From Cloacibacterium sp. TD35 (GTDB lineage Bacteria; Bacteroidota; Bacteroidia; Flavobacteriales; Weeksellaceae), in contig NZ_CP104850.1 in NCBI RefSeq assembly GCF_028864635.1, positions 1,246,001 through 1,310,000 on the forward strand: a DNA stretch of 64,000 bases, given 5' to 3'. The notes below the pieces were generated by a model. The model did no database searches and was not told the DNA's origin. It saw nothing but the letters and a program-made list of their open reading frames with translations. Shown here piece by piece: positions 8,484 through 44,594 of this stretch; position 1 is the first letter of the stretch; the number at the start of each line of letters is the position of its first letter. Made by a program: the position numbers and the translations under genes.

Positions 8484-9212
8484 ATGATTTTACGTGGCGA
8501 AAATTTAATTAAAGAATACGGACCCAAAAAAGTAGTAAAAGGTGTTACCGTAGAAGTAAAAAAAGGAGAAATTGTAGGTTTACTCGGGCCAAATGGTGCG
8601 GGAAAAACCACTACTTTCTATATGATTGTGGGATTGGTAAAACCTACTTCTGGCAAAATTACGCTTGACGGAAAAGATATTACTAATGATGCCATGTATA
8701 AACGTGCGCAAAAAGGAATTGGTTATTTGGCTCAGGAAGCTTCTGTTTTTAGAAAACTGTCAGTAGAAGATAATATTTTAGGCGTTTTACAACTCACCAA
8801 TAAATCTAAAGAAGAACAAATACGCAGAACCAATGAACTGATTGAAGAGTTTTCTCTAGAGCACGTTCGTAAAAACCGTGGAGACTTGCTTTCAGGAGGT
8901 GAAAGACGTAGAACCGAAATCGCGCGTTGTCTTGCTACAGACCCAGATTTTATTCTTTTAGATGAGCCTTTTGCAGGAGTAGACCCTATTGCGGTAGAAG
9001 ATATTCAGAAAATTATCAGAAGTTTGGTGAAAAAAGACATAGGTGTTTTAATTACTGACCACAATGTTCAACAAACTTTGGCAATTACCAATAAAACCTA
9101 CATCATGTTCGAAGGAAACATCTTGAAAGAAGGTTTACCAGAAGATTTAGCTAATGATCCACAAGTAAGACAAGCTTATTTGGGTGAGAATTTTAGATTT
9201 GAAAAATTCTAA
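8484..9212 (+). CDS. lptB: LPS export ABC transporter ATP-binding protein LptB
   Basis: This 242-residue ATPase powers extraction of lipopolysaccharide from the inner membrane together with LptF/LptG. It has Walker A GPNGAGKT (35-42), signature LSGGERRR (about 138), Walker [13 protein letters not shown] (about 160) and the H-loop in ITDHNV. The ERRR signature and the FAGVDP wording are typical of LptB. No permease gene is adjacent, which is normal because lptFG usually lie elsewhere. The start at 8484 gives the normal family length; the extra upstream residues come from terminator sequence. A 7-bp repeat array separates it from the adenosyltransferase gene. Confidence 0.93.
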
Positions 9213-9213
9213 A

Positions 9214-9241
9214 CATCCATCATCTAACATCCAACATCCTG
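9214..9241 (+). repeat. heptamer array, 4 units, before adenosyltransferase start
   Basis: Four consecutive 7-base units on the mRNA strand: CATCCAT, CATCTAA, CATCCAA, CATCCTG. The array begins right after the lptB stop (9210-9212) and ends 7 bases before the ATG at 9249. The same kind of array recurs in the complex I operon. Confidence 0.85.
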
Positions 9242-9248
9242 CTATTTT

Positions 9249-9824
9249 ATGAAAATCTACACCAAAACTGGCGATAAAGGCGAAACCTCTTTGTACGGAG
9301 GAACCAGAGTTTCAAAAGCTGCTGCAAGAGTAGAGTCTTACGGAACTTTAGACGAACTTAATGCGTTCATTGGTTTGGCAAAAGCCGAAATTTCCGATGA
9401 AAAAGTATTGAATCAACTGCAGAAAATTCAGTTTGATTTATTTACCGTAGGTTCAGAAGCAGCTACGCCAACAGATAAACTGATTTTAGCCAATGGTAAA
9501 AATCGTTTAGATTTAATGATTTCCGAAGAAGAAATATTAGAATTAGAATATTGGATGGATGATTTAGATGCGTCTTTAGAACCTTTACAATTCTTTATTT
9601 TACCAAGCGGTGGAAAAGCTGCTGCATCTATTCACGTTTGTAGAACGGTCTGCAGAAGAGCAGAACGCGCTATGGTTCATCTCAATGAAACCGAAGAAGT
9701 AAGAGCAGAACTCATCAAATATCTCAATAGATTGTCTGATTATCTTTTTATTTTGGCAAGATATATCTCTAAAATTTCTGGAGAAAAAGAAGAATACTGG
9801 AATCCTTCAGAAAGAGCTAAGTAA
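9249..9824 (+). CDS. PduO-type cob(I)yrinic acid a,c-diamide adenosyltransferase
   Basis: This 191-residue protein transfers adenosine from ATP to cob(I)alamin to make coenzyme B12. The N-terminal ATP site TKTGDKGETSLYGG (5-18) and YGTLDELNAFIG (31-42) are diagnostic. The C-terminal helices carry CRRAERAMV (about 134-142) and NRLSDYLFILAR (about 161-172). It is a trimeric helical bundle in known members. The methylmalonyl-CoA epimerase gene at 61 kb belongs to a B12-dependent pathway that would use this cofactor. It lies 36 bases after lptB, with only the heptamer array between them. Confidence 0.94.
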   Translation: MKIYTKTGDKGETSLYGGTRVSKAAARVESYGTLDELNAFIGLAKAEISDEKVLNQLQKIQFDLFTVGSEAATPTDKLILANGKNRLDLMISEEEILELEYWMDDLDASLEPLQFFILPSGGKAAASIHVCRTVCRRAERAMVHLNETEEVRAELIKYLNRLSDYLFILARYISKISGEKEEYWNPSERAK

Positions 9825-34320: not shown

Positions 34321-34325
34321 TATTT

Positions 34326-34360
34326 ATAGATTTGAGATTTAAGATTTGAGATTTGAGATT
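34326..34360 (-). repeat. heptamer array, 5 units, before nuoN start
   Basis: On the mRNA strand: AATCTCA, AATCTCA, AATCTTA, AATCTCA, AATCTAT, then AAATA and the nuoN ATG. Five consecutive units with a period of exactly 7, three of them identical. Confidence 0.9.
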
Positions 34361-34393
34361 CTCAAAAAACAAATTCTAAAATTTATTATTTTT

Positions 34394-35878
34394 TTAACCC
34401 TTAATAGAAGAGTAGATAAACTTCAACGAACTATTCACCATTTCTAAAACACCGCTTGGGAAAACTCCTAATAAGATTACCACTACAGCTAAACTTGCCA
34501 ATACTACAAATTCTACATTAGAAATGTCTTTTAAGGTACTTACCACTCTTTCATCACCGGTTCCAAACATGGCTTTTCCATACATTCTGAGCAGATAAAC
34601 TGCTGCTAGAATAATAGTAAGACCTGCAAAAATGACTACCACTTTGTCATAATCAAAAATAGATTTTAATAAAATAAATTCGCCGATGAATCCATTCGTT
34701 AATGGAACTCCCATAGAACCAAGTAATAAAATCATGAAAAGCGTAGCAAATTTAGGGGCTGCTTTAGCGTAACCTCCCATTTGTCTGATGTCTCTTGTTT
34801 TAAATTGTTTGATTAAAATATCAGCACAGTAGAATAAACCTACTACGTTAATACCGTGTGCAAAAGTTTGAACTAAAGCTCCCTGGGCTCCTTCGAAAGT
34901 GAAATTCCCTTGAGCCGTAAGGATAGCAGAAGCAAAAATACCTGCCACCATTAATCCTACGTGAGAAAGCGATGAGAAAGCGATAATTTTCTTAATATCA
35001 TGGTGTACAATCGCGATAAGCGCTCCGTAAACCACTCCTAGAATAGAAAGAATCATCACTACTTGCCCTGAAGTTCCGAGTAAAGCAGTTGGTGCAATTG
35101 GTAATAAATATCTTAAAACACCATAAATAGCCATTTTAAGCATGATACCAGAAAGCAACATCGTTCCTTGAGTAGGAGAGAAGGTGTAAGTGTCTGGTTG
35201 CCAATTGTGAAGTGGGAAAATCGGTAATTTTACAGCAAAAGCTAAGAAAATTAACCAGAAAACCACTACTTGTTGTACTTCGTTTAAGTTAGCGTTATAT
35301 AAATCTGTTAGTTCAAAAGATGCAGAATGGTTGTAAACATAAATCAAACCAATGAACATAAATAATGAACCTACAAAAGTATATACGAAAAACTTGGTGG
35401 TAACTTTAATTCTCTTTTCTTCGTCTCCCCAAAGTCCAGCGATGAACCAAATTGGGATAAGAGTTACTTCCCAGAAAACGTAGAACAATAATCCGTCTAG
35501 AGCGGTGAAAACACCTACTAAACCAAACTGCATTAATAGGATTAACGCATAGAAATTATTATTGTATTTCTCGTTTTCATTGAAAGAAGAAAGAATAATC
35601 AATGGAACTAAGATGTTTGTTAATAATAACAAAAGCATACTCATTCCGTCTACACCAAAGTGTAATGTGCTTTTAATATATGATGACCACGGTTTGATAA
35701 TCTCAAATTGCAATTGAGAGTCTACCGTAGGTACATTATTAAATTGTGATAGCATGTAGAATGTTAAAAACATCTGCACGAAAGCAATTCCTACTGCTAA
35801 ATATTTGCTATTAGAGTTTCTAAACGCAAAAACTAATCCTGAACCAATTAAAGGTAAAAGTAACAGTGCTTCTAACAT
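34394..35878 (-). CDS. nuoM: NADH-quinone oxidoreductase subunit M
   Basis: This 494-residue antiporter-like subunit has about 14 helices. FYVFWEVTLIPIWF (about 129-142) contains the essential glutamate of helix 5. KLPIFPLHNWQPDTYTFSPTQGTMLLSG (about 217-244, quoted in part) carries the conserved lysine and the histidine-containing loop, and KKIIAFSSLSHVG (about 293-305) is the helix 8 motif. It starts 3 bases after the nuoL stop and is followed by a 73-base spacer containing the nuoN heptamer array. Confidence 0.96.
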   Translation of the reverse strand: MLEALLLLPLIGSGLVFAFRNSNSKYLAVGIAFVQMFLTFYMLSQFNNVPTVDSQLQFEIIKPWSSYIKSTLHFGVDGMSMLLLLLTNILVPLIILSSFNENEKYNNNFYALILLMQFGLVGVFTALDGLLFYVFWEVTLIPIWFIAGLWGDEEKRIKVTTKFFVYTFVGSLFMFIGLIYVYNHSASFELTDLYNANLNEVQQVVVFWLIFLAFAVKLPIFPLHNWQPDTYTFSPTQGTMLLSGIMLKMAIYGVLRYLLPIAPTALLGTSGQVVMILSILGVVYGALIAIVHHDIKKIIAFSSLSHVGLMVAGIFASAILTAQGNFTFEGAQGALVQTFAHGINVVGLFYCADILIKQFKTRDIRQMGGYAKAAPKFATLFMILLLGSMGVPLTNGFIGEFILLKSIFDYDKVVVIFAGLTIILAAVYLLRMYGKAMFGTGDERVVSTLKDISNVEFVVLASLAVVVILLGVFPSGVLEMVNSSLKFIYSSIKG

Positions 35879-35881
35879 TTG

Positions 35882-37780
35882 CTATTGTAATAAAAAGTTA
35901 ACAATTAAAATTAAACCGATTGCCAAAGACATAATGAGAACATAATTTTCTACATTACCATTTTGGAATTTTTTAAACGATCTTCCAGATTCTACTGCTC
36001 CGAAACCTACAAAATTGAAGAATCTATCCATCAGTTTATCAAACATTCTGGTGCCTTTTCCAAGACCTTCTACAGGTTTCACTACCGTAGCATTGTAAAG
36101 CTCGTCTATTAATAATTTTTTAGCTGATAGTCTTTCCCAGCCTTTATAATTTTCTTCTGGTTGAGCCATTTTGTTTTTAGTAACATAAATATTTCTTACA
36201 ATGAAGAATACCGCTGCTACCATTACTAATGTAATCGCCAAAAGAATCATTTCAATATTAAATGGAACTTCTGCATGTTTCGCTCCATATACGTAAAGTG
36301 GTTCTAACCAATGTGCTAAATTTTGATATTCACCATGACCTATGAAATGAGGTAAATTAATGAAACCTCCTACCACTGATAATACAGCTAATACTACTAA
36401 TGGTAAAGTCATAGAGATAGGACTTTCGTGTAAATGATGTTTTTGTTCTTCTGTTCCTCTGAAATTTCCAAAGAAGGTTAAGAATAACAATCTAAACATA
36501 TAAATTCCAGTTAATGCAGCACTGAACAATGTTAAGCCCCAAATTACTGGAGATTTTGCCCAAAGTGCAACTAAAATTTCGTCTTTAGAAATCATACCAG
36601 ACAATGGCGGAATTCCAGCAATGGCTAATGTTCCGATTAAGAAAGTCCAATAGGTTACAGGAATTTTAGATTTTAAACCTCCCATAAATCTCATATCTTG
36701 TTCTCCACTCATCGCGTGAATTACCGAACCAGCTCCTAAGAATAACAATGCTTTGAAGAAAGCGTGCGTCATTAAGTGGAACATAGCAGAAGTATAGGCT
36801 TCTACACCCAGTGCTATAAACATAAGTCCTAACTGAGAAACAGTAGAGTATGCTAACACTTTTTTGATATCATTTTGTCTTAAACCGATGAATGCTGCAA
36901 TTAATGAAGTAGCAAGACCTATTACAAGAATAAAGTCTAAAGTGCTCGGTGAAAGATGATATAAGAAATTAGAACGTACAACTAAATAAATACCAGCTGT
37001 AACCATGGTTGCCGCGTGAATTAACGCAGAAACTGGGGTAGGACCAGCCATCGCATCTGGTAGCCATGTAAATAAAGGAATCTGTGCAGATTTACCCATA
37101 GCTCCAATGAATAAACTAAGTGTGATAAACATAATCACCACTCCGTCAAATTCAAATTTTGAAGCGTTTTGTGCTACAGAAAGATAATCTAGTGCATTGG
37201 TTTGTGAAGCGATTAGGAAAATACCAATCAATAAACCAAGGTCACCAATTCTGTTCATAATGAAAGCTTTTCTAGCAGCTTTACCATATTCTGTATTTTC
37301 GTACCAGAAACCAATCAGTAAGTAAGAACAAAGACCTACACCTTCCCAACCGATGAAAAGAATAAGGTAATTGCTTCCCATTACCAAAAGGAGCATGGAG
37401 AAAATAAATAAATTCAAATAAGTGAAAAACTTGTAGAAACCTTTGTCATGGCTCATGTAGCCAATAGAGTACAAGTGAATCAAAGAACCAATTCCTGTAA
37501 CAATCATCATCATCATTAATGATAATTGGTCTATTTGGAACCCGAAATTTACTTGAATTCCACCGATGGTGAACCATTCAAATGCTTTTACAATAACTGG
37601 TGTTCCGTCTGCAGGAAAACCTATAAAAATACTTACAGAAATTAGAAAAGCAGCGAATACTACTAATGTAGCTAATCCGCCAACCAAAGCTTTTGGTAAG
37701 CGCTTTCCGAATAATCCGTTGATTACAAATCCAATTAAAGGAAGTAAAACGATTGCGTATACTAAATTTTCCATCTGCAT
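35882..37780 (-). CDS. nuoL: NADH-quinone oxidoreductase subunit L
   Basis: This 632-residue protein is the distal antiporter-like subunit with the long lateral helix HL at its C-terminus (about 500-632). GWEGVGLCSYLLIGFW (about 143-158) contains the functional glutamate region. KSAQIPLFTWLPDAMAGPTPVSALIHAATMV (quoted in part) holds lysine and histidine residues of the proton path, and KKVLAYSTVSQLG (about 308-320) is the second lysine helix. The start ATG overlaps the nuoK stop by one base (TAATG). An ATG two codons later is possible. Confidence 0.96.
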   Translation of the reverse strand: MQMENLVYAIVLLPLIGFVINGLFGKRLPKALVGGLATLVVFAAFLISVSIFIGFPADGTPVIVKAFEWFTIGGIQVNFGFQIDQLSLMMMMIVTGIGSLIHLYSIGYMSHDKGFYKFFTYLNLFIFSMLLLVMGSNYLILFIGWEGVGLCSYLLIGFWYENTEYGKAARKAFIMNRIGDLGLLIGIFLIASQTNALDYLSVAQNASKFEFDGVVIMFITLSLFIGAMGKSAQIPLFTWLPDAMAGPTPVSALIHAATMVTAGIYLVVRSNFLYHLSPSTLDFILVIGLATSLIAAFIGLRQNDIKKVLAYSTVSQLGLMFIALGVEAYTSAMFHLMTHAFFKALLFLGAGSVIHAMSGEQDMRFMGGLKSKIPVTYWTFLIGTLAIAGIPPLSGMISKDEILVALWAKSPVIWGLTLFSAALTGIYMFRLLFLTFFGNFRGTEEQKHHLHESPISMTLPLVVLAVLSVVGGFINLPHFIGHGEYQNLAHWLEPLYVYGAKHAEVPFNIEMILLAITLVMVAAVFFIVRNIYVTKNKMAQPEENYKGWERLSAKKLLIDELYNATVVKPVEGLGKGTRMFDKLMDRFFNFVGFGAVESGRSFKKFQNGNVENYVLIMSLAIGLILIVNFLLQ

Positions 37781-38106
37781 TATCCTTTTAATTTGTTAAA
37801 AATACTTACATCTACATTTCTGGTATTTCTGTACATCATAGTGATAATCGCTAGACCTACCGCAACTTCTGCAGCGGCCACTACCATGATAAAGAATACC
37901 AAAATTTGTCCGTTTCCATCTCCTTTATAAGCAGAAAATGCAGCCAAAAGTAGATTTACAGAATTAAGCATTAATTCTACACATCCTAAAATGATGATGG
38001 CATTTTTACGAACGAGAACTCCTAAAACTCCTAAACAAAACAATGTAGTACTTAAAATAATGTACCAATTGAGCGGTATGTTTTGTAAAAATGAATTGAC
38101 TTCCAT
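37780..38106 (-). CDS. nuoK: NADH-quinone oxidoreductase subunit K
   Basis: This 108-residue three-helix membrane subunit carries the conserved glutamates in GCVELMLNSVNL (about 41-52) and VVAAAEVAVGLAI (about 74-86), which lie on the proton wire. The ATG at 38106 gives the normal length and lies 4 bases after the nuoJ stop. A TTG further upstream at 38130 would overlap nuoJ and is not needed. Confidence 0.95.
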   Translation of the reverse strand: MEVNSFLQNIPLNWYIILSTTLFCLGVLGVLVRKNAIIILGCVELMLNSVNLLLAAFSAYKGDGNGQILVFFIMVVAAAEVAVGLAIITMMYRNTRNVDVSIFNKLKG

Positions 38107-38110
38107 AATT

Positions 38111-38605
38111 CTATAAATCTTTTTTACCAATTAATACTGCGCTTACAATACCTGCTAAAATCAGTATAGAAGCGAGTTCGAATGGTAATACATATTCGTT
38201 AAACAATAATTTTCCAAGGTTTTTAGTCAAACCGATGCTGCTATCAATATTATCAACAACATTCGATTGAGAAAGGCCTTTATAAGCTCCTAACATTCCT
38301 ACGAAAAGGATTCCGGCAGAAAAAATACCGATAAATTTCGTAAGGTTTTGTTTTTTGCTTTCGTCTTTAGAATTAAGATTAAGCATCATTAATACATAAA
38401 GGAATAACACCATGATGGCTCCTGTGTACACGATAATTTGTACAATTCCTAAGAACTGCGCATTTAATAAAACATATAATGCAGCAATGCTAAAGAAAGT
38501 TACAACTAGTGATAAAATGGCGTACAAAGGATTTCTTGCAAATACAAAGTAAACAGCACTTGCAACCGCTACTAAAGCGATAAAAAAGAATAAGAACTGT
38601 TCCAT
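38111..38605 (-). CDS. nuoJ: NADH-quinone oxidoreductase subunit J
   Basis: This 164-residue five-helix subunit has the helix 3 region NAQFLGIVQIIVYTGAIMVLFLYV (about 48-71, cited in part), in which the family has its pi-bulge and conserved Tyr-Thr-Gly. It starts directly after the nuoI stop with no spacer. It is shorter than in some proteobacteria but normal for Bacteroidota. Confidence 0.95.
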   Translation of the reverse strand: MEQFLFFFIALVAVASAVYFVFARNPLYAILSLVVTFFSIAALYVLLNAQFLGIVQIIVYTGAIMVLFLYVLMMLNLNSKDESKKQNLTKFIGIFSAGILFVGMLGAYKGLSQSNVVDNIDSSIGLTKNLGKLLFNEYVLPFELASILILAGIVSAVLIGKKDL

Positions 38606-39160
38606 TTATTTAAGAGCTTTTTTTTGTGATTCTGTTTGTCTGTCAGAAATATCTATTCTGTTTTCCATGCTTTCTACCAAAAGATCTTTGCCGTAGATAA
38701 AAGAGCCTCTGTTTTGTTCTGGTTTTACAATTCTATCGGTAAGATAAATTGCAGATTTAGGACAAGCTTCTTCGCATAATCCACAGAAGATACATCTTAG
38801 CATATTGATTTCATATACTTCGGCATATTTTTCTTCTCTGTAAAGATGTTTTTGCTCTTTGGTACGTTCTCCTGCAGTCATGGTAATGGCTTCAGCCGGA
38901 CAAGCTACCGCACATAATCCACAAGCAGTACATCTTTCTCTGCCTTCATCATCACGCTTTAGAACGTGTAATCCACGATAAATTTTAGAAAATTCTCTTT
39001 GCTCTTCAGGATAGCTTACCGTAGGTAATTTCCCAGTAAGAGTCATTATCGCATGTTTTCCGGTAATTCCCATTCCTTTGAAAATTGCAGGGAGATAAAT
39101 TTTCTCTGCAAAAGTCATCTTTTTGTTAGAAGCTACCTTTGATCTATTGGTTAATTTCAT
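38606..39160 (-). CDS. nuoI: NADH-quinone oxidoreductase subunit I
   Basis: This 184-residue ferredoxin-like subunit carries clusters N6a and N6b. The two CxxCxxCxxxC motifs are C77/C80/C83/C87 and C123/C126/C129/C133. An N-terminal amphipathic segment (about 20-45) contacts the membrane arm. It passes electrons towards NuoB. The start codon follows a four-unit heptamer array in the 71-base spacer after nuoH. Confidence 0.96.
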   Translation of the reverse strand: MKLTNRSKVASNKKMTFAEKIYLPAIFKGMGITGKHAIMTLTGKLPTVSYPEEQREFSKIYRGLHVLKRDDEGRERCTACGLCAVACPAEAITMTAGERTKEQKHLYREEKYAEVYEINMLRCIFCGLCEEACPKSAIYLTDRIVKPEQNRGSFIYGKDLLVESMENRIDISDRQTESQKKALK

Positions 39161-39164
39161 ATTG

Positions 39165-39192
39165 TTAGATTTCAGATTTTAGATGTTAGATT
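39165..39192 (-). repeat. heptamer array, 4 units, before nuoI start
   Basis: On the mRNA strand: AATCTAA, CATCTAA, AATCTGA, AATCTAA, then CAAT and the nuoI ATG. Confidence 0.88.
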
Positions 39193-39231
39193 TATTTTAA
39201 TCTACACCAATTATCATTTATCACTTATAAT

Positions 39232-40281
39232 TTAAATCCATTGATAATGTTGGTTCAAAAGAACTACAGCTCCAGTTACCAACAAGTTTACTAATGCAAG
39301 CGGAATTAATGATTTCCAACCTAGGTGCATTAATTGGTCATATCTAAATCTAGGTAAAGTCCATCTAATCCACATAAATGTAATGATTACAGCAATGGTC
39401 TTAACCAAGAATGCTAAAATACTCGCAATTCCAGCAGCGTTTTCTCCCCAGTTTTCACCAATCCATGCTAATCCTGGGAAATTGTAACTTCCTAAGAAAA
39501 GGGTAGTGATTAATGCTGAAGAAATAAATAAGTTTACATATTCGCCGAATAAGAAAAGTCCTAGTTTCATTGCAGAGTATTCTGTATGGAAACCTCCTAC
39601 TAATTCTGTTTCACATTCTGGTAAATCAAACGGAGCTCTATTGGTTTCTGCTAATGCTGCTACAAAGAAGATGATAAATGCTAATGGTTGGAAGAAGATA
39701 TTCCATTTCATACCATACCATCCACTTTGAGATTCTGCAATTACCTTAAGGTCTAGAGAACTGTTCATCATGATGATAGCTAATAGAGATAGCCCCATTG
39801 CTAATTCGTAAGAAATCATTTGAGATGAAGCTCTAATTGCTCCGATTAATGAATATTTATTGTTAGAAGCCCAGCCTCCAATCATAATTCCGTAAACACC
39901 GATAGAAACCATTCCCATTAAGTAGAGAACACCTACATCTAGATTGGCTACTTGTAAATCAAAAGATTGTCCGCCAATATTAAGAGATTTTCCCCATGGA
40001 ATTACGGCTCCTGTAATGAGTGAAATAAACATTACTAAACCAGGCCCGAAGAAAAATAAGAATTTTTCTGCTTTTTCTGGGATAAAGTCTTCTTTGAAGA
40101 AGAATTTTCCACCGTCAGCTAATGGTTGAAGTAAACCGAATTTCCAGCTTCTGTTGGGACCAATTCTGTCTTGCATAATAGCAGCCACTTTTCTCTCTGC
40201 CCAAGTAGAGTAGGCTGCTACAGCCATAGAAAGGGCGAAAAGTGATACTACAAGTATTGTTTTGAAAAGTATTAAATCCAT
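39232..40281 (-). CDS. nuoH: NADH-quinone oxidoreductase subunit H
   Basis: This 349-residue eight-helix subunit forms most of the quinone chamber. ERKVAAIMQDRIGPNR (about 29-44) is the conserved matrix-side loop 1. ETNRAPFDLPECETELVGGFHTEYS (about 207-231, quoted in part) is the acidic loop near the quinone entrance, and RFRYDQLMHLGWK (about 312-324) lies in the last loop. The gene lies between nuoG and nuoI, the standard order. Confidence 0.96.
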   Translation of the reverse strand: MDLILFKTILVVSLFALSMAVAAYSTWAERKVAAIMQDRIGPNRSWKFGLLQPLADGGKFFFKEDFIPEKAEKFLFFFGPGLVMFISLITGAVIPWGKSLNIGGQSFDLQVANLDVGVLYLMGMVSIGVYGIMIGGWASNNKYSLIGAIRASSQMISYELAMGLSLLAIIMMNSSLDLKVIAESQSGWYGMKWNIFFQPLAFIIFFVAALAETNRAPFDLPECETELVGGFHTEYSAMKLGLFLFGEYVNLFISSALITTLFLGSYNFPGLAWIGENWGENAAGIASILAFLVKTIAVIITFMWIRWTLPRFRYDQLMHLGWKSLIPLALVNLLVTGAVVLLNQHYQWI

Positions 40282-40318
40282 TTCTTTGATTTATGAATTT
40301 TTATTTTATTCTTTTTAA

Positions 40319-41329
40319 TTAAGCGTTATGTTGTTCGTCTTCTGCGCTAATTTCTTTAGCGGTTTCATTTTCTAACGCTTTTACCACCATTTCTTCTGGT
40401 TTTTGGTAATGGTTAAGAGAAATTACAGAATGTCTGCTGATGTGTCTAGGTCCTTCTATGTTCCAGTGTTTTACATCTTTTTTCTCGAATCTACATTCGT
40501 TACAGATAAATTCTTCTACTTCTCCGTATTGGTCTTTTCTGGCAGTTACTCTTACGATTTCGTCTCCTTTCATCCATAGAACTGCTTTACCAGAACATTT
40601 AGAACAAGTACAAGTAGCATCTACTGGTTTTGTAAACCAAACTCTGCTTGCAAATCTTGCAGTTCTATCTGTTAATGCTCCTACTGGACAAACGTCTATC
40701 ACGTTTCCAATAAAATCATTATCTAAAGCTTTATTTAAGTATGTAGAGATTTCTGCATGCTCACCTCTGAAAAGAATACCGTGCTCTCTCTTGTTAGTTA
40801 ACTGATTTGCCACCAAAACGCATCTTGCACACAAGATACATCTGTTCATATTTAGCTTAATGTTTGGACCTAAATCATCAGCATCAAAAGTATTTCTTTC
40901 GAAATCAGTTCTGGTTTGCTGAAGACCATGTTCGTAACCTAAATCTTGAAGGTGACATTCACCAGCCTGGTCACAAATAGGGCAGTCTAGTGGGTGATTT
41001 AATAAAAGGAATTCAGTAACGGCTTTTCTTGCTTCTTGCGTTTTTTCAGAAGTAAGATTTTTCACTTCCATTCCGTCCATTACTGTAGTTCTACAGCTTG
41101 CCACTAATTTTGGCATAGGACGAGGATCTGCTTCAGAACCTTTAGAAACTTCTACTAGGCAAGTTCTGCATCTACCGCCACTATTTTCTAATTTACTGTA
41201 ATAACACATAGCCGGAGGTACAGATTTACCACCAATCTGGCGCGCTGCGTTTAGAATGGTAGTTCCTGGCTCTACTTCCGTAGTTTGCCCGTCAATGGTT
41301 ACTTTAAATTTTTTAATTTCTTCGCTCAT
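40319..41329 (-). CDS. nuoG: NADH-quinone oxidoreductase subunit G, short form
   Basis: This 336-residue protein has only the N-terminal iron-sulfur part of NuoG. Cluster ligands are C42/C54/C57/C79 (2Fe-2S), H112/C116/C119/C125 (N5) and C164/C167/C170/C214 (N4). The roughly 350-550-residue molybdopterin-like domain found in E. coli is missing. The 37-base spacer to nuoH leaves no room for a remnant, so this is a short gene and not a frameshift. After N4 there are five more cysteines (C240, C242, C245, C276, C279), arranged like a zinc ribbon or an altered N7-type site. I recall short NuoG proteins in other Flavobacteriia. Confidence 0.93.
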   Translation of the reverse strand: MSEEIKKFKVTIDGQTTEVEPGTTILNAARQIGGKSVPPAMCYYSKLENSGGRCRTCLVEVSKGSEADPRPMPKLVASCRTTVMDGMEVKNLTSEKTQEARKAVTEFLLLNHPLDCPICDQAGECHLQDLGYEHGLQQTRTDFERNTFDADDLGPNIKLNMNRCILCARCVLVANQLTNKREHGILFRGEHAEISTYLNKALDNDFIGNVIDVCPVGALTDRTARFASRVWFTKPVDATCTCSKCSGKAVLWMKGDEIVRVTARKDQYGEVEEFICNECRFEKKDVKHWNIEGPRHISRHSVISLNHYQKPEEMVVKALENETAKEISAEDEQHNA

Positions 41330-41374
41330 TTCTATGTATTATGAATTAAGCTTTAGCTTTATTAATGTCTAATA

Positions 41375-42727
41375 TTATTGTTTTTCAACTACCGGAAGTG
41401 GATCTGCATAATGTGCAATTCCATAGTTTCTGGTTAAGCATTCTGGATTATTGATATGCCATTCGAACTCATCTCTAAAATGACAAATTGCTGCTGCTAC
41501 AGGCCAAGCTGCTGCATCTCCTAATGGGCAAATGGTATTTCCTTCAATTTTTCTCTGAATATCCCATAGCAAGTCGATATCTTTCATTTCGCCTTGCCCT
41601 GATTCTATTTTTTTCAGAATTTTATACATCCATCCTGTTCCTTCACGACATGGTGTACATTGTCCGCAACTTTCGTGGTTGTAGAAATGTGCTAAGGTCA
41701 TGGTGTGTTTTACCACACATTGGTCTTCATCTAAAACAATGAAACCACCAGAACCCATCATAGTTCCTGTAGCGAAACCACCATCAGAAAGAGATTCGTA
41801 GTTCATGTATCTTGGTTCACCTGCAGCTGTTTTAAGCAATAGATTTGCTGGAACAATTGGAACTGAAGAACCTCCAGGAATACACGCTTTTAATTTTTTA
41901 CCATTCGGAATTCCGCCACAATATTCATCAGAGTAGATAAATTCTTCTACGGTGATGGTCATGTCTATTTCGTAAACTCCTGGTTTATTGATGTTTCCAC
42001 AAGCGGAAATTAATTTAGTACCTGTAGAACGTCCTAAGCCAATTTTAGCGTATTCTGCTCCTGTAATATCAATTATTGGAACTACTGCAGCGATGGTTTC
42101 TACGTTATTTACCACAGTTGGAGATTGCCAAAGACCTTTTACCGCAGGGAAAGGTGGTTTTAATCTAGGATTTCCACGTTTTCCTTCTAGTGATTCTAGA
42201 AGTGCAGTTTCTTCTCCACAGATATAAGCACCAGCTCCTCTCTGAACATAGATTTCTAAATCGAAACCACTGCCTAAAATATTTTTACCAAGGAAACCTG
42301 CTTTTTTAGCTTCGTCAATTGCTTGTTCTAAAATATCTGGAATCCATGCATATTCTCCTCTGATGTAGATGTAAGAAGTATTAGAACCTAATGCATAAGA
42401 TGCGATAATCATTCCTTCAATCAATAAATGAGGGATATGCTCCATCAAATATCTATCTTTAAAAGTTCCAGGTTCAGATTCGTCTGCATTTACAACCAAA
42501 TATCTAGGCACACCTTCTGGTTTTGCTAGGAAACTCCATTTCATACCTGTAGGGAAACCAGCGCCACCACGCCCTCTAAGACCAGAAGTTTTTACTTCTT
42601 CTACAATTTGGTCTGGAGTCATTTTCAGTGCTTTTTCTACAGACTGGTAACCACCATGTTCTCTGTAAGTATCAAAGTTTCTGATACCTTCTATGTGTGC
42701 GTTTTTAAGTAAAAGTTTTTTACTCAT
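41375..42727 (-). CDS. nuoF: NADH-quinone oxidoreductase subunit F
   Basis: This 450-residue subunit oxidises NADH. GRGGAGFPTG (52-61) is the FMN/NADH glycine loop, YICGEETALLESLEG (about 165-179) is the second NADH-side motif, and ESCGQCTPCREG plus the downstream NTICPLGD hold the N3 4Fe-4S cluster. FMN accepts hydride and passes electrons to N3 and to the NuoE cluster. It starts 12 bases after the nuoE stop. Confidence 0.96.
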   Translation of the reverse strand: MSKKLLLKNAHIEGIRNFDTYREHGGYQSVEKALKMTPDQIVEEVKTSGLRGRGGAGFPTGMKWSFLAKPEGVPRYLVVNADESEPGTFKDRYLMEHIPHLLIEGMIIASYALGSNTSYIYIRGEYAWIPDILEQAIDEAKKAGFLGKNILGSGFDLEIYVQRGAGAYICGEETALLESLEGKRGNPRLKPPFPAVKGLWQSPTVVNNVETIAAVVPIIDITGAEYAKIGLGRSTGTKLISACGNINKPGVYEIDMTITVEEFIYSDEYCGGIPNGKKLKACIPGGSSVPIVPANLLLKTAAGEPRYMNYESLSDGGFATGTMMGSGGFIVLDEDQCVVKHTMTLAHFYNHESCGQCTPCREGTGWMYKILKKIESGQGEMKDIDLLWDIQRKIEGNTICPLGDAAAWPVAAAICHFRDEFEWHINNPECLTRNYGIAHYADPLPVVEKQ

Positions 42728-42739
42728 AACTGTTATTTA

Positions 42740-43249
42740 TTAATCAATAGCGATTTGTCCTTGTCTACAAAGGTCAAGAATTTCGTCTACTTTTTCTTTA
42801 GTTAAATTTTCGTGATAGAATTTTCCAAGTTGCATCATGGGTGCATAACCGCAAGCTCCAAGACATTCTGCAGGTTTTAGGGTAAATAAACCATCTGCAG
42901 TAGTTTCGCCTGCTTTAATGCCTAATCTTTCTTTAATGTGATTTACAATATCATCACTTCCTCTTAGCATACATGGCCCTGTAACGCAAACTTCTAAAAC
43001 GTATTTTCCTACAGGCTGCATGTTAAACATGGTGTAGAAAGTAGCTACTTCATACACTTCTATTGGAGTAATTTCTAAAACACTTGCTACATAATCCATC
43101 ACAGGAACGTCTAACCAACCTCCAAATTCTTTTTGTGCTAAGTGAAGCACAGGAATTAATGCAGATTTTTGTTTTCCTTCTGGATATCTTGCAATGATTT
43201 GTTTTACTTTTTCTAAAGTTTCTGGTTTAAAAGCAATTGTTTCGCTCAT
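42740..43249 (-). CDS. nuoE: NADH-quinone oxidoreductase subunit E
   Basis: This 169-residue thioredoxin-like ferredoxin binds the N1a 2Fe-2S cluster through C88, C93, C129 and C133 (CVTGPC and ECLGACGYAP). The N-terminal helical domain (1-75) contacts NuoF. The 101-base spacer from nuoD contains a short inverted repeat and two heptamer units just before the ATG. Confidence 0.96.
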   Translation of the reverse strand: MSETIAFKPETLEKVKQIIARYPEGKQKSALIPVLHLAQKEFGGWLDVPVMDYVASVLEITPIEVYEVATFYTMFNMQPVGKYVLEVCVTGPCMLRGSDDIVNHIKERLGIKAGETTADGLFTLKPAECLGACGYAPMMQLGKFYHENLTKEKVDEILDLCRQGQIAID

Positions 43250-43257
43250 AATTTTAT

Positions 43258-43271
43258 TTAGATTTCAGACA
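43258..43271 (-). repeat. heptamer array, 2 units, before nuoE start
   Basis: On the mRNA strand: TGTCTGA, AATCTAA, then ATAAAATT and ATG. A third AATCTGA copy lies separately at 43286-43292. Confidence 0.6.
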
Positions 43272-43350
43272 CTGTATTTCAAGTGTCAGATTTTTAAATT
43301 TATAATTATTGATGTCTTATATATGGTTTCTGATATTAGACATCTCATTT

Positions 43351-44574
43351 TTATCCGTCTAATTCTCCAGCAATTACATTCATACTACTCATGGTAACGA
43401 TTGCATCAGAAATTACAGATCCTTTAATCATTTCTGGATATGCTTGGTAGTAAATGAAACATGGTCTTCTGAAGTGTAATCTGTATGGGCTTCTACCGCC
43501 ATCACTTACTAAATAGAAACCAAGTTCACCGTTTCCACCTTCTACGGAATGGTAAACTTCACCAGCAGGAACATCAGTTTCGCCCATTACGATTTTGAAG
43601 TGATAAATTAATGCTTCCATGTTGCTGTAAACCTCTGCTTTTTCTGGTAAGAAAAATTCTGGTACATCTGCATGGAAATCTCCTTCTGGTAAATTATTAT
43701 ATGCTTGGTTAATGATTTTTAAACTTTCCCAAATTTCTTGTTGACGAACCATGAATCTATCATAAGTATCTCCTGCAGTACCAATTGGGATAATAAAATC
43801 AAAATCTTGATAAGATGAATAAGGACTTGCCACCCTTACGTCATAATCTACACCTGCAGCTCTTAAGTTAGGACCTGCAAAACTGTAGTTTAATGCACGT
43901 TCAGCACTAATAGCACCCGCACCAATGGTTCTGTCCATAAAGATTCTGTTACGCTCTATTAAGTTGCTGAATTCTTGGAATCTTGCGGGGAATGTTTTTA
44001 AGAAGTCTTTTAATAATTCGTGGAATTTAGGAGTGAAATCTCTGTCAAAACCACCAATTCTTCCCATGTTTGTAGTCATTCTGGCGCCACAAACTTGTTC
44101 GTACATATCGTAAATCTTTTCTCTGTCTTGGAAAACATAGGTGAAACCTGTTAAGGCTCCTGTATCAACACCAATTACAGAGTTACAAACCAAGTGGTCT
44201 GCAATACGAGCTAGCTCCATCATGATAACACGCATGTAATCTACTCTCTTTGGCATTTCTATACCAAGAAGTTTTTCTACAGTCATGTGCCAACCAATGT
44301 TATTGATAGGTGCAGAACAATAATTTAAACGGTCTGTAAGTGTAGTGATTTGAGTGAAATTTCTACGTTCAGCTATTTTTTCAAAAGCTCTGTGGATATA
44401 ACCTACGGTTTGTTCAGAATGAAGAATTCTCTCACCATCCATGGTTAACACATTTTGGAAAATACCGTGTGTAGCAGGGTGGGTAGGACCGAGGTTCAGT
44501 GTATATAGTTGACCATCTACTTGCTCTTGAGCATCATACTGGTTAAGTATATTTGATAATTGATTGTCTTTCAT
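43351..44574 (-). CDS. nuoD: NADH-quinone oxidoreductase subunit D
   Basis: This 407-residue subunit of the quinone-reducing module is related to the large subunit of NiFe hydrogenases. LNLGPTHPATHG (about 26-37) contains the quinone-site histidine, and GYIHRAFEKIAE (about 59-70) and the C-terminal end with MSSMNVIAGELDG complete the pattern. The hydrogenase metal cysteines are absent, as expected. NuoC and NuoD are separate here, unlike the fused NuoCD of E. coli. A 22-base spacer to nuoC holds two heptamer units. Confidence 0.96.
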   Translation of the reverse strand: MKDNQLSNILNQYDAQEQVDGQLYTLNLGPTHPATHGIFQNVLTMDGERILHSEQTVGYIHRAFEKIAERRNFTQITTLTDRLNYCSAPINNIGWHMTVEKLLGIEMPKRVDYMRVIMMELARIADHLVCNSVIGVDTGALTGFTYVFQDREKIYDMYEQVCGARMTTNMGRIGGFDRDFTPKFHELLKDFLKTFPARFQEFSNLIERNRIFMDRTIGAGAISAERALNYSFAGPNLRAAGVDYDVRVASPYSSYQDFDFIIPIGTAGDTYDRFMVRQQEIWESLKIINQAYNNLPEGDFHADVPEFFLPEKAEVYSNMEALIYHFKIVMGETDVPAGEVYHSVEGGNGELGFYLVSDGGRSPYRLHFRRPCFIYYQAYPEMIKGSVISDAIVTMSSMNVIAGELDG

Positions 44575-44580
44575 AATAAT

Positions 44581-44594
44581 TTAGATTTCAGAAT
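44581..44594 (-). repeat. heptamer array, 2 units, before nuoD start
   Basis: On the mRNA strand: ATTCTGA, AATCTAA, then ATTATT and the nuoD ATG. The unit next to the start is identical to that before nuoI and nuoE. Confidence 0.6.

Follow-up and report, generated by a model that had tools for sequence, protein, structure and literature searches.

The window analysed here is a stretch of 64,000 nucleotides (nt) from Cloacibacterium sp. TD35, whose genome (G000) consists of one contig of 2,595,287 bases. It covers positions 1246001-1310000 and carries on its minus strand the nuo operon, which encodes complex I. Two spacers of this operon hold tandem arrays of a 7-nt unit that reads MATCYNA in the mRNA sense and ends shortly before the ATG of the following gene. 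The array upstream of nuoN (34326-34360, minus strand) reads AATCTCA AATCTCA AATCTTA AATCTCA and then the variant AATCTAT. Its strict part comprises four units (34333-34360), and the variant occupies 34326-34332; the array ends 5 nt before the ATG, and the last strict unit 12 nt before it. The array upstream of nuoI (39165-39192, minus strand), which reads AATCTAA CATCTAA AATCTGA AATCTAA, ends 4 nt before the ATG. Both are predicted to constitute the 3' arm of an imperfect hairpin, the first in the nuoM-nuoN spacer (34321-34393, minus strand; -10 kcal/mol, z -2.44 against dinucleotide shuffles) and the second in the nuoH-nuoI spacer (39161-39231, minus strand; -9.7 kcal/mol, z -2.09).

The initial annotation had listed four such arrays in the operon, all composed of MATCYNA units. 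Their coordinates were correct, as were the distances from the units to the ATG (nuoN 5, nuoI 4, nuoE 8 and nuoD 6 nt), and AATCTAA is indeed the start-proximal unit at nuoI, nuoE and nuoD. However, the strict pattern retains only the four units of nuoI and four of the five at nuoN. The nuoE site (43258-43271, minus strand) consists of TGTCTGA followed by a single strict AATCTAA, and the nuoD site (44581-44594, minus strand) of ATTCTGA followed by a single strict AATCTAA, so that neither is an array under this pattern. The nuoE site overlaps a hairpin at 43268-43287, where a strong stem, GACACT ... AGTGTC, adjoins the single AATCTAA in a nuoD-nuoE spacer with a fold z of -4.03.

A strict scan of the 64-kb window (two or more tandem MATCYNA units, both strands) returned three sites, namely nuoN and nuoI, with four units each, and 9221-9234 on the plus strand, with two. 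The last of these lies within an additional imperfect array, absent from the initial annotation, at 9212-9239 (plus strand; unit AACATCC / CATCYAA, four copies, 80% matches). It takes up the greater part of the spacer in front of a gene for cobalamin adenosyltransferase (9249-9824), from whose ATG it is separated by 9 nt.

Arrays across the genome and the genus

In the whole 2.6-Mb genome, three or more tandem MATCYNA units are found in 15 placements, which correspond to eight arrays. All eight are intergenic. In the direction of transcription of the downstream gene each consists of MATCYNA units, and they end -1, 4, 6, 9, 10, 12, 14 and 17 nt before its ATG; one of them is AATCCTA repeated four times. 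Such a scan had been named in the initial annotation as a way of refuting a role in translation, and within G000, with eight of eight arrays in the sense orientation and close to a start, no refutation was obtained. According to Pfam, the downstream genes encode L16, a PheT-like synthetase subunit, two UbiA-family prenyltransferases, NuoN, NuoI, a 2OG-Fe(II) oxygenase and an AcrB-type transporter. The backward pattern, used as a genome-wide control, gave 3 placements against 15, a comparison that is weak, and uninformative for AATCTAA, since this unit is the same when read backwards.

An unbiased sample of the genome, formed by the window and 20 stretches of 20 kb (464 kb, 18% of the genome), contains five period-7 arrays at a score threshold of 14, all of them intergenic. 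The other periods contribute two, one and one arrays, at periods 8, 9 and 11, which leaves period 7 with five of nine, whereas one Markov-simulated control of equal length holds no array at any period from 4 to 12. The arrays are therefore more than a product of AT-richness or chance, as had been argued initially. Among 80 loci from other Bacteroidota, period 7 accounts for 30 of the 40 intergenic arrays with periods of 4 to 12, although 10 of these 30 come from a single locus (L074). A concealed period 7 in array-free spacers was also considered and rejected, the signal being small and indistinct from that at adjacent lags. An array of a different unit, CTCATCA in the mRNA sense, lies elsewhere in the same genome (L097, 5455-5483), 7 nt from a start codon.

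Arrays of MATCTNA occur in all seven genomes of the genus that were examined (G000 and its congeners G001-G006, one genome per species), with 13 to 56 three-unit placements per genome. Family-wide, four tandem AATCTNA units are found in 56 of 148 genomes and in 15 of 33 genera. The nuo operon itself was compared in six genomes, as that of G005 was not found in the stretch examined. The nuoN array is identical in G000, G001, G002, G003 and G006 and absent in G004; at fourfold sites of nuo genes, G001 and G003 diverge from G000 by 12% and G004 by 42%. This conservation is not special, because other unrearranged nuo spacers are, by eye, about equally conserved. The nuoI array is present in all six genomes, in two unrelated spacer alleles. 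The nuoG-nuoH spacer (40282-40318, minus strand) has no array in the window, while the orthologues of G001, G002, G003, G004 and G006 carry four AATCTAA units plus AATCTCA before nuoH; the final bases before the ATG are unchanged with or without the array. The sequence of the nuoD site is the same in G001, G002, G003 and G006, but not in G004, and that of the nuoD-nuoE spacer differs in G001, G002, G003, G004 and G006. In two further places of the operon, the 100 nt before nuoF in the nuoE-nuoF spacer of G003 (L164) and the 100 nt upstream of nuoG in G004 (L160), the sequence is entirely unlike that of the other genomes, as if DNA had been inserted.

The number of units varies between species in whole steps. 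At one orthologous site there are three units in G001, five in G003 and three in G000, and at the gene of locus L148 a length of 71 nt contrasts with one of 85 nt. The proposal of a slippage-variable leader fits this variation between species, with slippage, selection and any effect on expression being inferred.

Orientation at gene edges

Orientation was counted for arrays of any unit by taking the strand with more C than G as the reference and comparing the two distances to the nearest called genes, which were mechanical calls of the longest ATG-started open reading frames (ORFs). The 3' end of the C-rich strand lies nearer to a gene in 6 of 7 arrays of the unbiased sample (score threshold 12; 14 in the other sets), 15 of 18 in G001, 16 of 21 in G003 and 17 of 18 at 79 nuoI loci from a wide range of Bacteroidota. 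The same holds for 52 of 66 arrays in G148, a Saprospiraceae metagenome-assembled genome, a polarity that is partly confounded because, by eye, some called starts lie inside ATG-bearing arrays and several stops inside stop-bearing G strands. Beyond the genus, the nuoI loci and G148 were the Bacteroidota covered; the nearest named relatives among the best 80 for nuoI are Elizabethkingia, Bergeyella and Kaistella. Sampling was unbiased in the stretches of the own genome, and the regions of G001, G002, G003 and G148 were picked for their array content. The G001 and G003 sets share orthologues, and L016 and L017 are the same array. The counts omit arrays within called ORFs (own sample 1, G148 15, 79 loci 6, G001 5, G003 2), as well as arrays whose G and C contents are equal or that lack a neighbour (0, 7, 2, 1 and 2 in the same order). 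In G001, G003 and G148 combined, 22 of 137 arrays lie inside called ORFs.

For the genus, 45 period-7 arrays of any unit remained after deduplication, from regions mostly selected for their MATCTNA arrays. Of these, 43 are located in tandem spacers, 34 in the sense and 9 in the antisense orientation. Twenty-five of the sense arrays are within 20 nt of a start, whereas seven of the antisense arrays lie within 14 nt of the stop of the upstream gene and one within 20 nt of the downstream start. Given this clustering of antisense arrays at stops, the arrays mark gene edges and not starts alone: it is the G-poor strand that tends to lead into the edge of a gene, whether ahead of a start or, on the opposite strand, behind a stop. 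The initial view of the arrays as a start-codon signal, borne out by the eight arrays of G000, is accordingly too narrow, as the orientation is not universal in the genus.

In other Bacteroidota, many different units occupy this gene-edge position. Close pairs of arrays in G148 are arranged as G-then-C in 14 of 17 cases, as C-then-G in one and as G-G in two, and several of them surround a palindrome. Across 344 kb of G148 picked around arrays (L074; L242-L261) there are 88 heptamer arrays, which belong to several unit families, including one of the TAACTGA type. Some of these arrays flank palindromes that start with GTAG and finish with CTAC, which we take to resemble repetitive extragenic palindromic (REP) elements. 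In 350 of the 366 kb of Trichormus variabilis plasmid A, seven of eight intergenic arrays have period 7; the polarity is absent there (2 of 7), in a set of few arrays whose units are nearly balanced in G and C, and the 5' flanks lack a period (2 flanks). No arrays were found in 50 kb of Escherichia coli.

The motif TAnnTTTG is the -7 promoter element of Bacteroidota. It appears on the antisense strand of 5 of 29 arrays, including one in the window (34327-34334) and flipped arrays of the genus, and four arrays of congeners (L143, L154, L161 and L168) are placed, by eye, some 10 to 20 nt upstream of a TAnnTTTG-like element and not at a start.

A proposed translation filter and its alternatives

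The account that we favour, with about even confidence, is that these are slippage-prone heptamer repeats whose orientation on the start side is filtered by translation, and not a dedicated signal. Exact 7-nt units would be gained and lost in spacers, most likely through slippage, and within the genus the MATCTNA family would dominate partly as the G-poor 3' arm of an imperfect hairpin between genes. Since 7 cannot be divided evenly by 3, repeated heptamers display every triplet in all three frames. A strand rich in A, C and U and devoid of AUG, GUG and UUG would suit the A-rich leaders of the phylum, which lack a Shine-Dalgarno sequence, while most flipped arrays would place decoy start codons directly upstream of a gene. 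Arrays of the opposite polarity may survive beside stop codons, and the copy number may nudge expression slightly.

In fact, ATG, GTG and TTG are absent from the MATCYNA strand of all 29 arrays inspected (8 from G000 and 21 from G001, two of the latter inside called ORFs), and 21 of the 29 would contain at least one of them if flipped. Array-free leaders have a frequency of 0.46 for A and 0.08 for G at positions -1 to -20. Bacteroidetes have been reported to lack Shine-Dalgarno sequences and to contain fewer AUG triplets than expected in the vicinity of the start codon (Baez et al. 2019, PMC6847099). A start-codon filter explains the polarity on the start side. On the stop side, either stop codons in the G strands or a coupling of hairpin arms may account for the polarity; by eye, many arrays extend across the stop, and in several units the G strand offers a stop codon in every frame.

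Several points weigh against this account. It offers no reason for a period of 7. One family, MATCTNA, makes up 39 of the 78 deduplicated arrays of the genus, and slippage from random local seeds would not yield a common unit. Despite a 48% difference at the fourfold sites of nuoH, G001 and G004 have identical nuoH arrays, which looks like constraint. Eight of the 29 arrays would contain no start codon when flipped. Finally, the C-poor polarity past stops is not explained by a start filter unless the two arms are coupled.

In a first alternative, possible but considerably less probable, the hairpin is what matters: a G-containing arm past the stop would pair with the G-poor arm before the start, the heptamers being mere modules of the arms. 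The effect would be to bring stop and start together (translational coupling) or to protect the mRNA between genes. In agreement with this, the 5' flanks of arrays carry a period 7 of their own beyond a 7-nt guard, with an excess of 9.8% in the genus (z 9.1, 43 flanks), 8.6% at the 79 Bacteroidota loci (z 5.2, 14 flanks) and 6.6% in G148 (z 8.2, 49 flanks), and they contain more G than C (0.15 against 0.09 in the genus). However, this periodicity may partly represent decayed array copies, as direct copies also match in the flank (mean z 0.81; 7 of 43 above 2). The inverse complement of the array is enriched in the 5' flank (mean z 1.21 for 36 genus arrays against 0.34 for 120 control spacers, p = 0.002; at least the pairs L011/L147 and L152/L165 are counted twice in this test, deduplication by 3' flank being imperfect, as it also is for the flank periods, the unit families and the orientation counts of the genus), but the inverted match exceeds a z of 2 in only 15 of 43 genus arrays. 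The 3' flanks of the genus show neither period 7 nor an excess of inverse complement, and those of G148 show some of both (z 2.4 at lag 7 and 3.8 at lag 14; mean z 2.04 for inverted matches).

Three orthologous spacers, those of purN and of the genes at L148 and L157, were traced through the seven genomes. The purN spacers differ in sequence among G000, G004, G005 and the G001 group, and by eye their heptamer-like units differ among G000, G004 and the G001 group; nevertheless, all seven fold, with z from -3.8 to -8.1 against mononucleotide shuffles. At the L148 gene the stem has six base pairs and one mismatch per 7 nt, and in G005 each arm is short by one unit. These data favour the hairpin, whereas the L157 gene gives a mixed picture across the seven genomes, and neither the L148 nor the L157 spacer has a significant fold in G000 (z 0.4 and 1.4). 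Moreover, array-free spacers fold at least as well as those with arrays (mean z -2.03 against -1.47); hairpins are ordinary here, and hairpin strength was rejected as a hallmark of arrays. An unstructured leader, also proposed initially, is at best weakly right: openness rises slightly at -20 to +10 (0.574 in 18 array leaders against 0.518 in 142 controls, p = 0.04), but array leaders equal controls at -35 to -1, and the nuoN and nuoI spacers fold.

An improbable explanation is that of a dedicated translational enhancer or landing site, at which the leader would be bound through its ATCTNA units by a ribosomal or other RNA-binding protein. For the TAACTGA repeats, proteins of the S1, Csp or Csr type have been proposed (MacGregor 2015, PMC4679880). 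The location of arrays immediately before starts and the conserved nuoH array of G001 and G004 are consistent with a dedicated site, and so is the variation within the unit: positions 2, 3, 5 and 7 are less variable than 1, 4 and 6, non-modal bases numbering 51, 25, 15, 41, 20, 61 and 25 at positions 1 to 7 (of 220 to 232 each), with the highest counts at 6, 1 and 4. Nevertheless, the distance between array and ATG varies from -1 to 17 nt, orthologous leaders do without the array (nuoH and purN in G000, nuoN in G004), and many unrelated units take the same position in other Bacteroidota. Single MATCTNA units are, moreover, only mildly enriched in G000: its 291 leaders hold 18 instead of an expected 9.2, the arrays of the window being counted in, and 277 trailers likewise hold 12 instead of 7.6. 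A genome-wide leader motif of single units was rejected as weak on these counts.

Much less probable still is a directional DNA process, by which G-strand repeats would extend outward from gene edges on a template of RNA or of other arrays. It would fit the symmetry of the mirror rule for starts and stops in all five sets, the G-then-C order of close pairs in G148 and the recurrence of one unit at many loci. However, growth does not overwrite the sequence up to the edge, as the nuoH ATG is preceded by identical bases whether or not an array is present. Templating by a reverse transcriptase was rejected, since PF00078 was not found in 8 of the 11 array-bearing genomes searched (including G000, G001, G003-G006 and G148); G002, G149 and G150 have one each. 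Base composition alone, by which A-rich, G-poor leaders would yield arrays and orientation by chance, is disfavoured to the point of being hardly credible, for although leader bases favour AATCTAA over its complement about 2.9-fold per unit (hand calculation), the Markov control is empty and the spacers of the 79 loci show an excess of 2.78% at lag 7 (z 16.8), compared with values between 0.1 and 1.2% for lags 3 to 6, 8 and 9.

Comparison with known repeats

The arrays are members of a known and little studied class of intergenic heptamer repeats. They resemble phase-variable contingency simple sequence repeats in being tandem, near starts and different by whole units, but their neighbours are, according to Pfam, ordinary cell genes and not surface or variable ones, and the differences were seen between species. 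With the Bacteroidetes leaders that lack Shine-Dalgarno sequences they have in common a setting tuned by upstream bases and poor in AUG near the start; the abstract describing those leaders does not mention repeats (PMC6847099).

A likeness is also found in the TAACTGA direct repeats of Beggiatoaceae, Cyanobacteria and some Bacteroidetes. These are mostly forward and near a start, at the Shine-Dalgarno position, with a reverse set right after a stop in the Flexibacter-like F. litoralis and with insertions and deletions in 7-nt steps between strains (MacGregor 2015, PMC4679880). The forward orientation immediately before the start codon is shared by all eight arrays of G000. The unit, however, is MATCYNA in G000, and the TAACTGA type is one of several families in G148.

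Heptamers with the units GGGNATC and GGGGA(C/T)T have been described in Xanthomonas and Nostoc (Rehm et al. 2015, PMC4692102). They are intergenic, with the G-rich strand antisense up to 50 bp before starts and sense up to 50 bp after stops, whatever the direction of the genes. Their unit number varies among close relatives, many of the genes belong to general metabolism, and no function was found for them in that study. The units form G-quadruplexes in vitro, with a preference for four copies, and an idea based on the polymerase footprint is cited there for the preference for period 7. Related work includes a survey from 2014 (PMC4060949) and a satellite survey from 2019 (PMC6749651), and among the matches listed in the open-licence literature on heptamer or 7-bp repeats there was no polarity study of Bacteroidota heptamers. 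The detailed polarity study that was found tied the heptamers to G-quadruplexes (Rehm et al. 2015).

The Bacteroidota arrays share with these repeats the prevalence of a 7-nt unit, the intergenic location and a G-rich strand that is antisense before starts and sense after stops. They differ in lacking the G-tracts needed for a G-quadruplex. GGG is missing from the G strand of all eight arrays of G000, one of which has GG. It is likewise missing from each of the 64 arrays in the sets formed by the own sample, G001, G003 and the 79 loci, with orthologues counted repeatedly, and it is present in 3 of 66 in G148. The polarity therefore cannot rest on quadruplexes here. That GGG-free units of a second phylum follow the rule as well shows that it must have a different cause. 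The genus carries 13 to 56 placements of the three-unit pattern per genome, many of them at common sites, and should allow the accounts based on translation, hairpins and slippage to be separated. A more speculative reading, to which we give a low probability, is that Bacteroidota spacers are built of 7-nt modules in two arms, C-poor past the stop and G-poor before the start, in which units are exchanged between species while the arms stay complementary and in step. If true, a single process, so far unrecognised and either mutational or selected, would create and maintain repeats of exactly 7 nt at gene edges, under a rule common to these arrays and to the G-quadruplex heptamers of other phyla.

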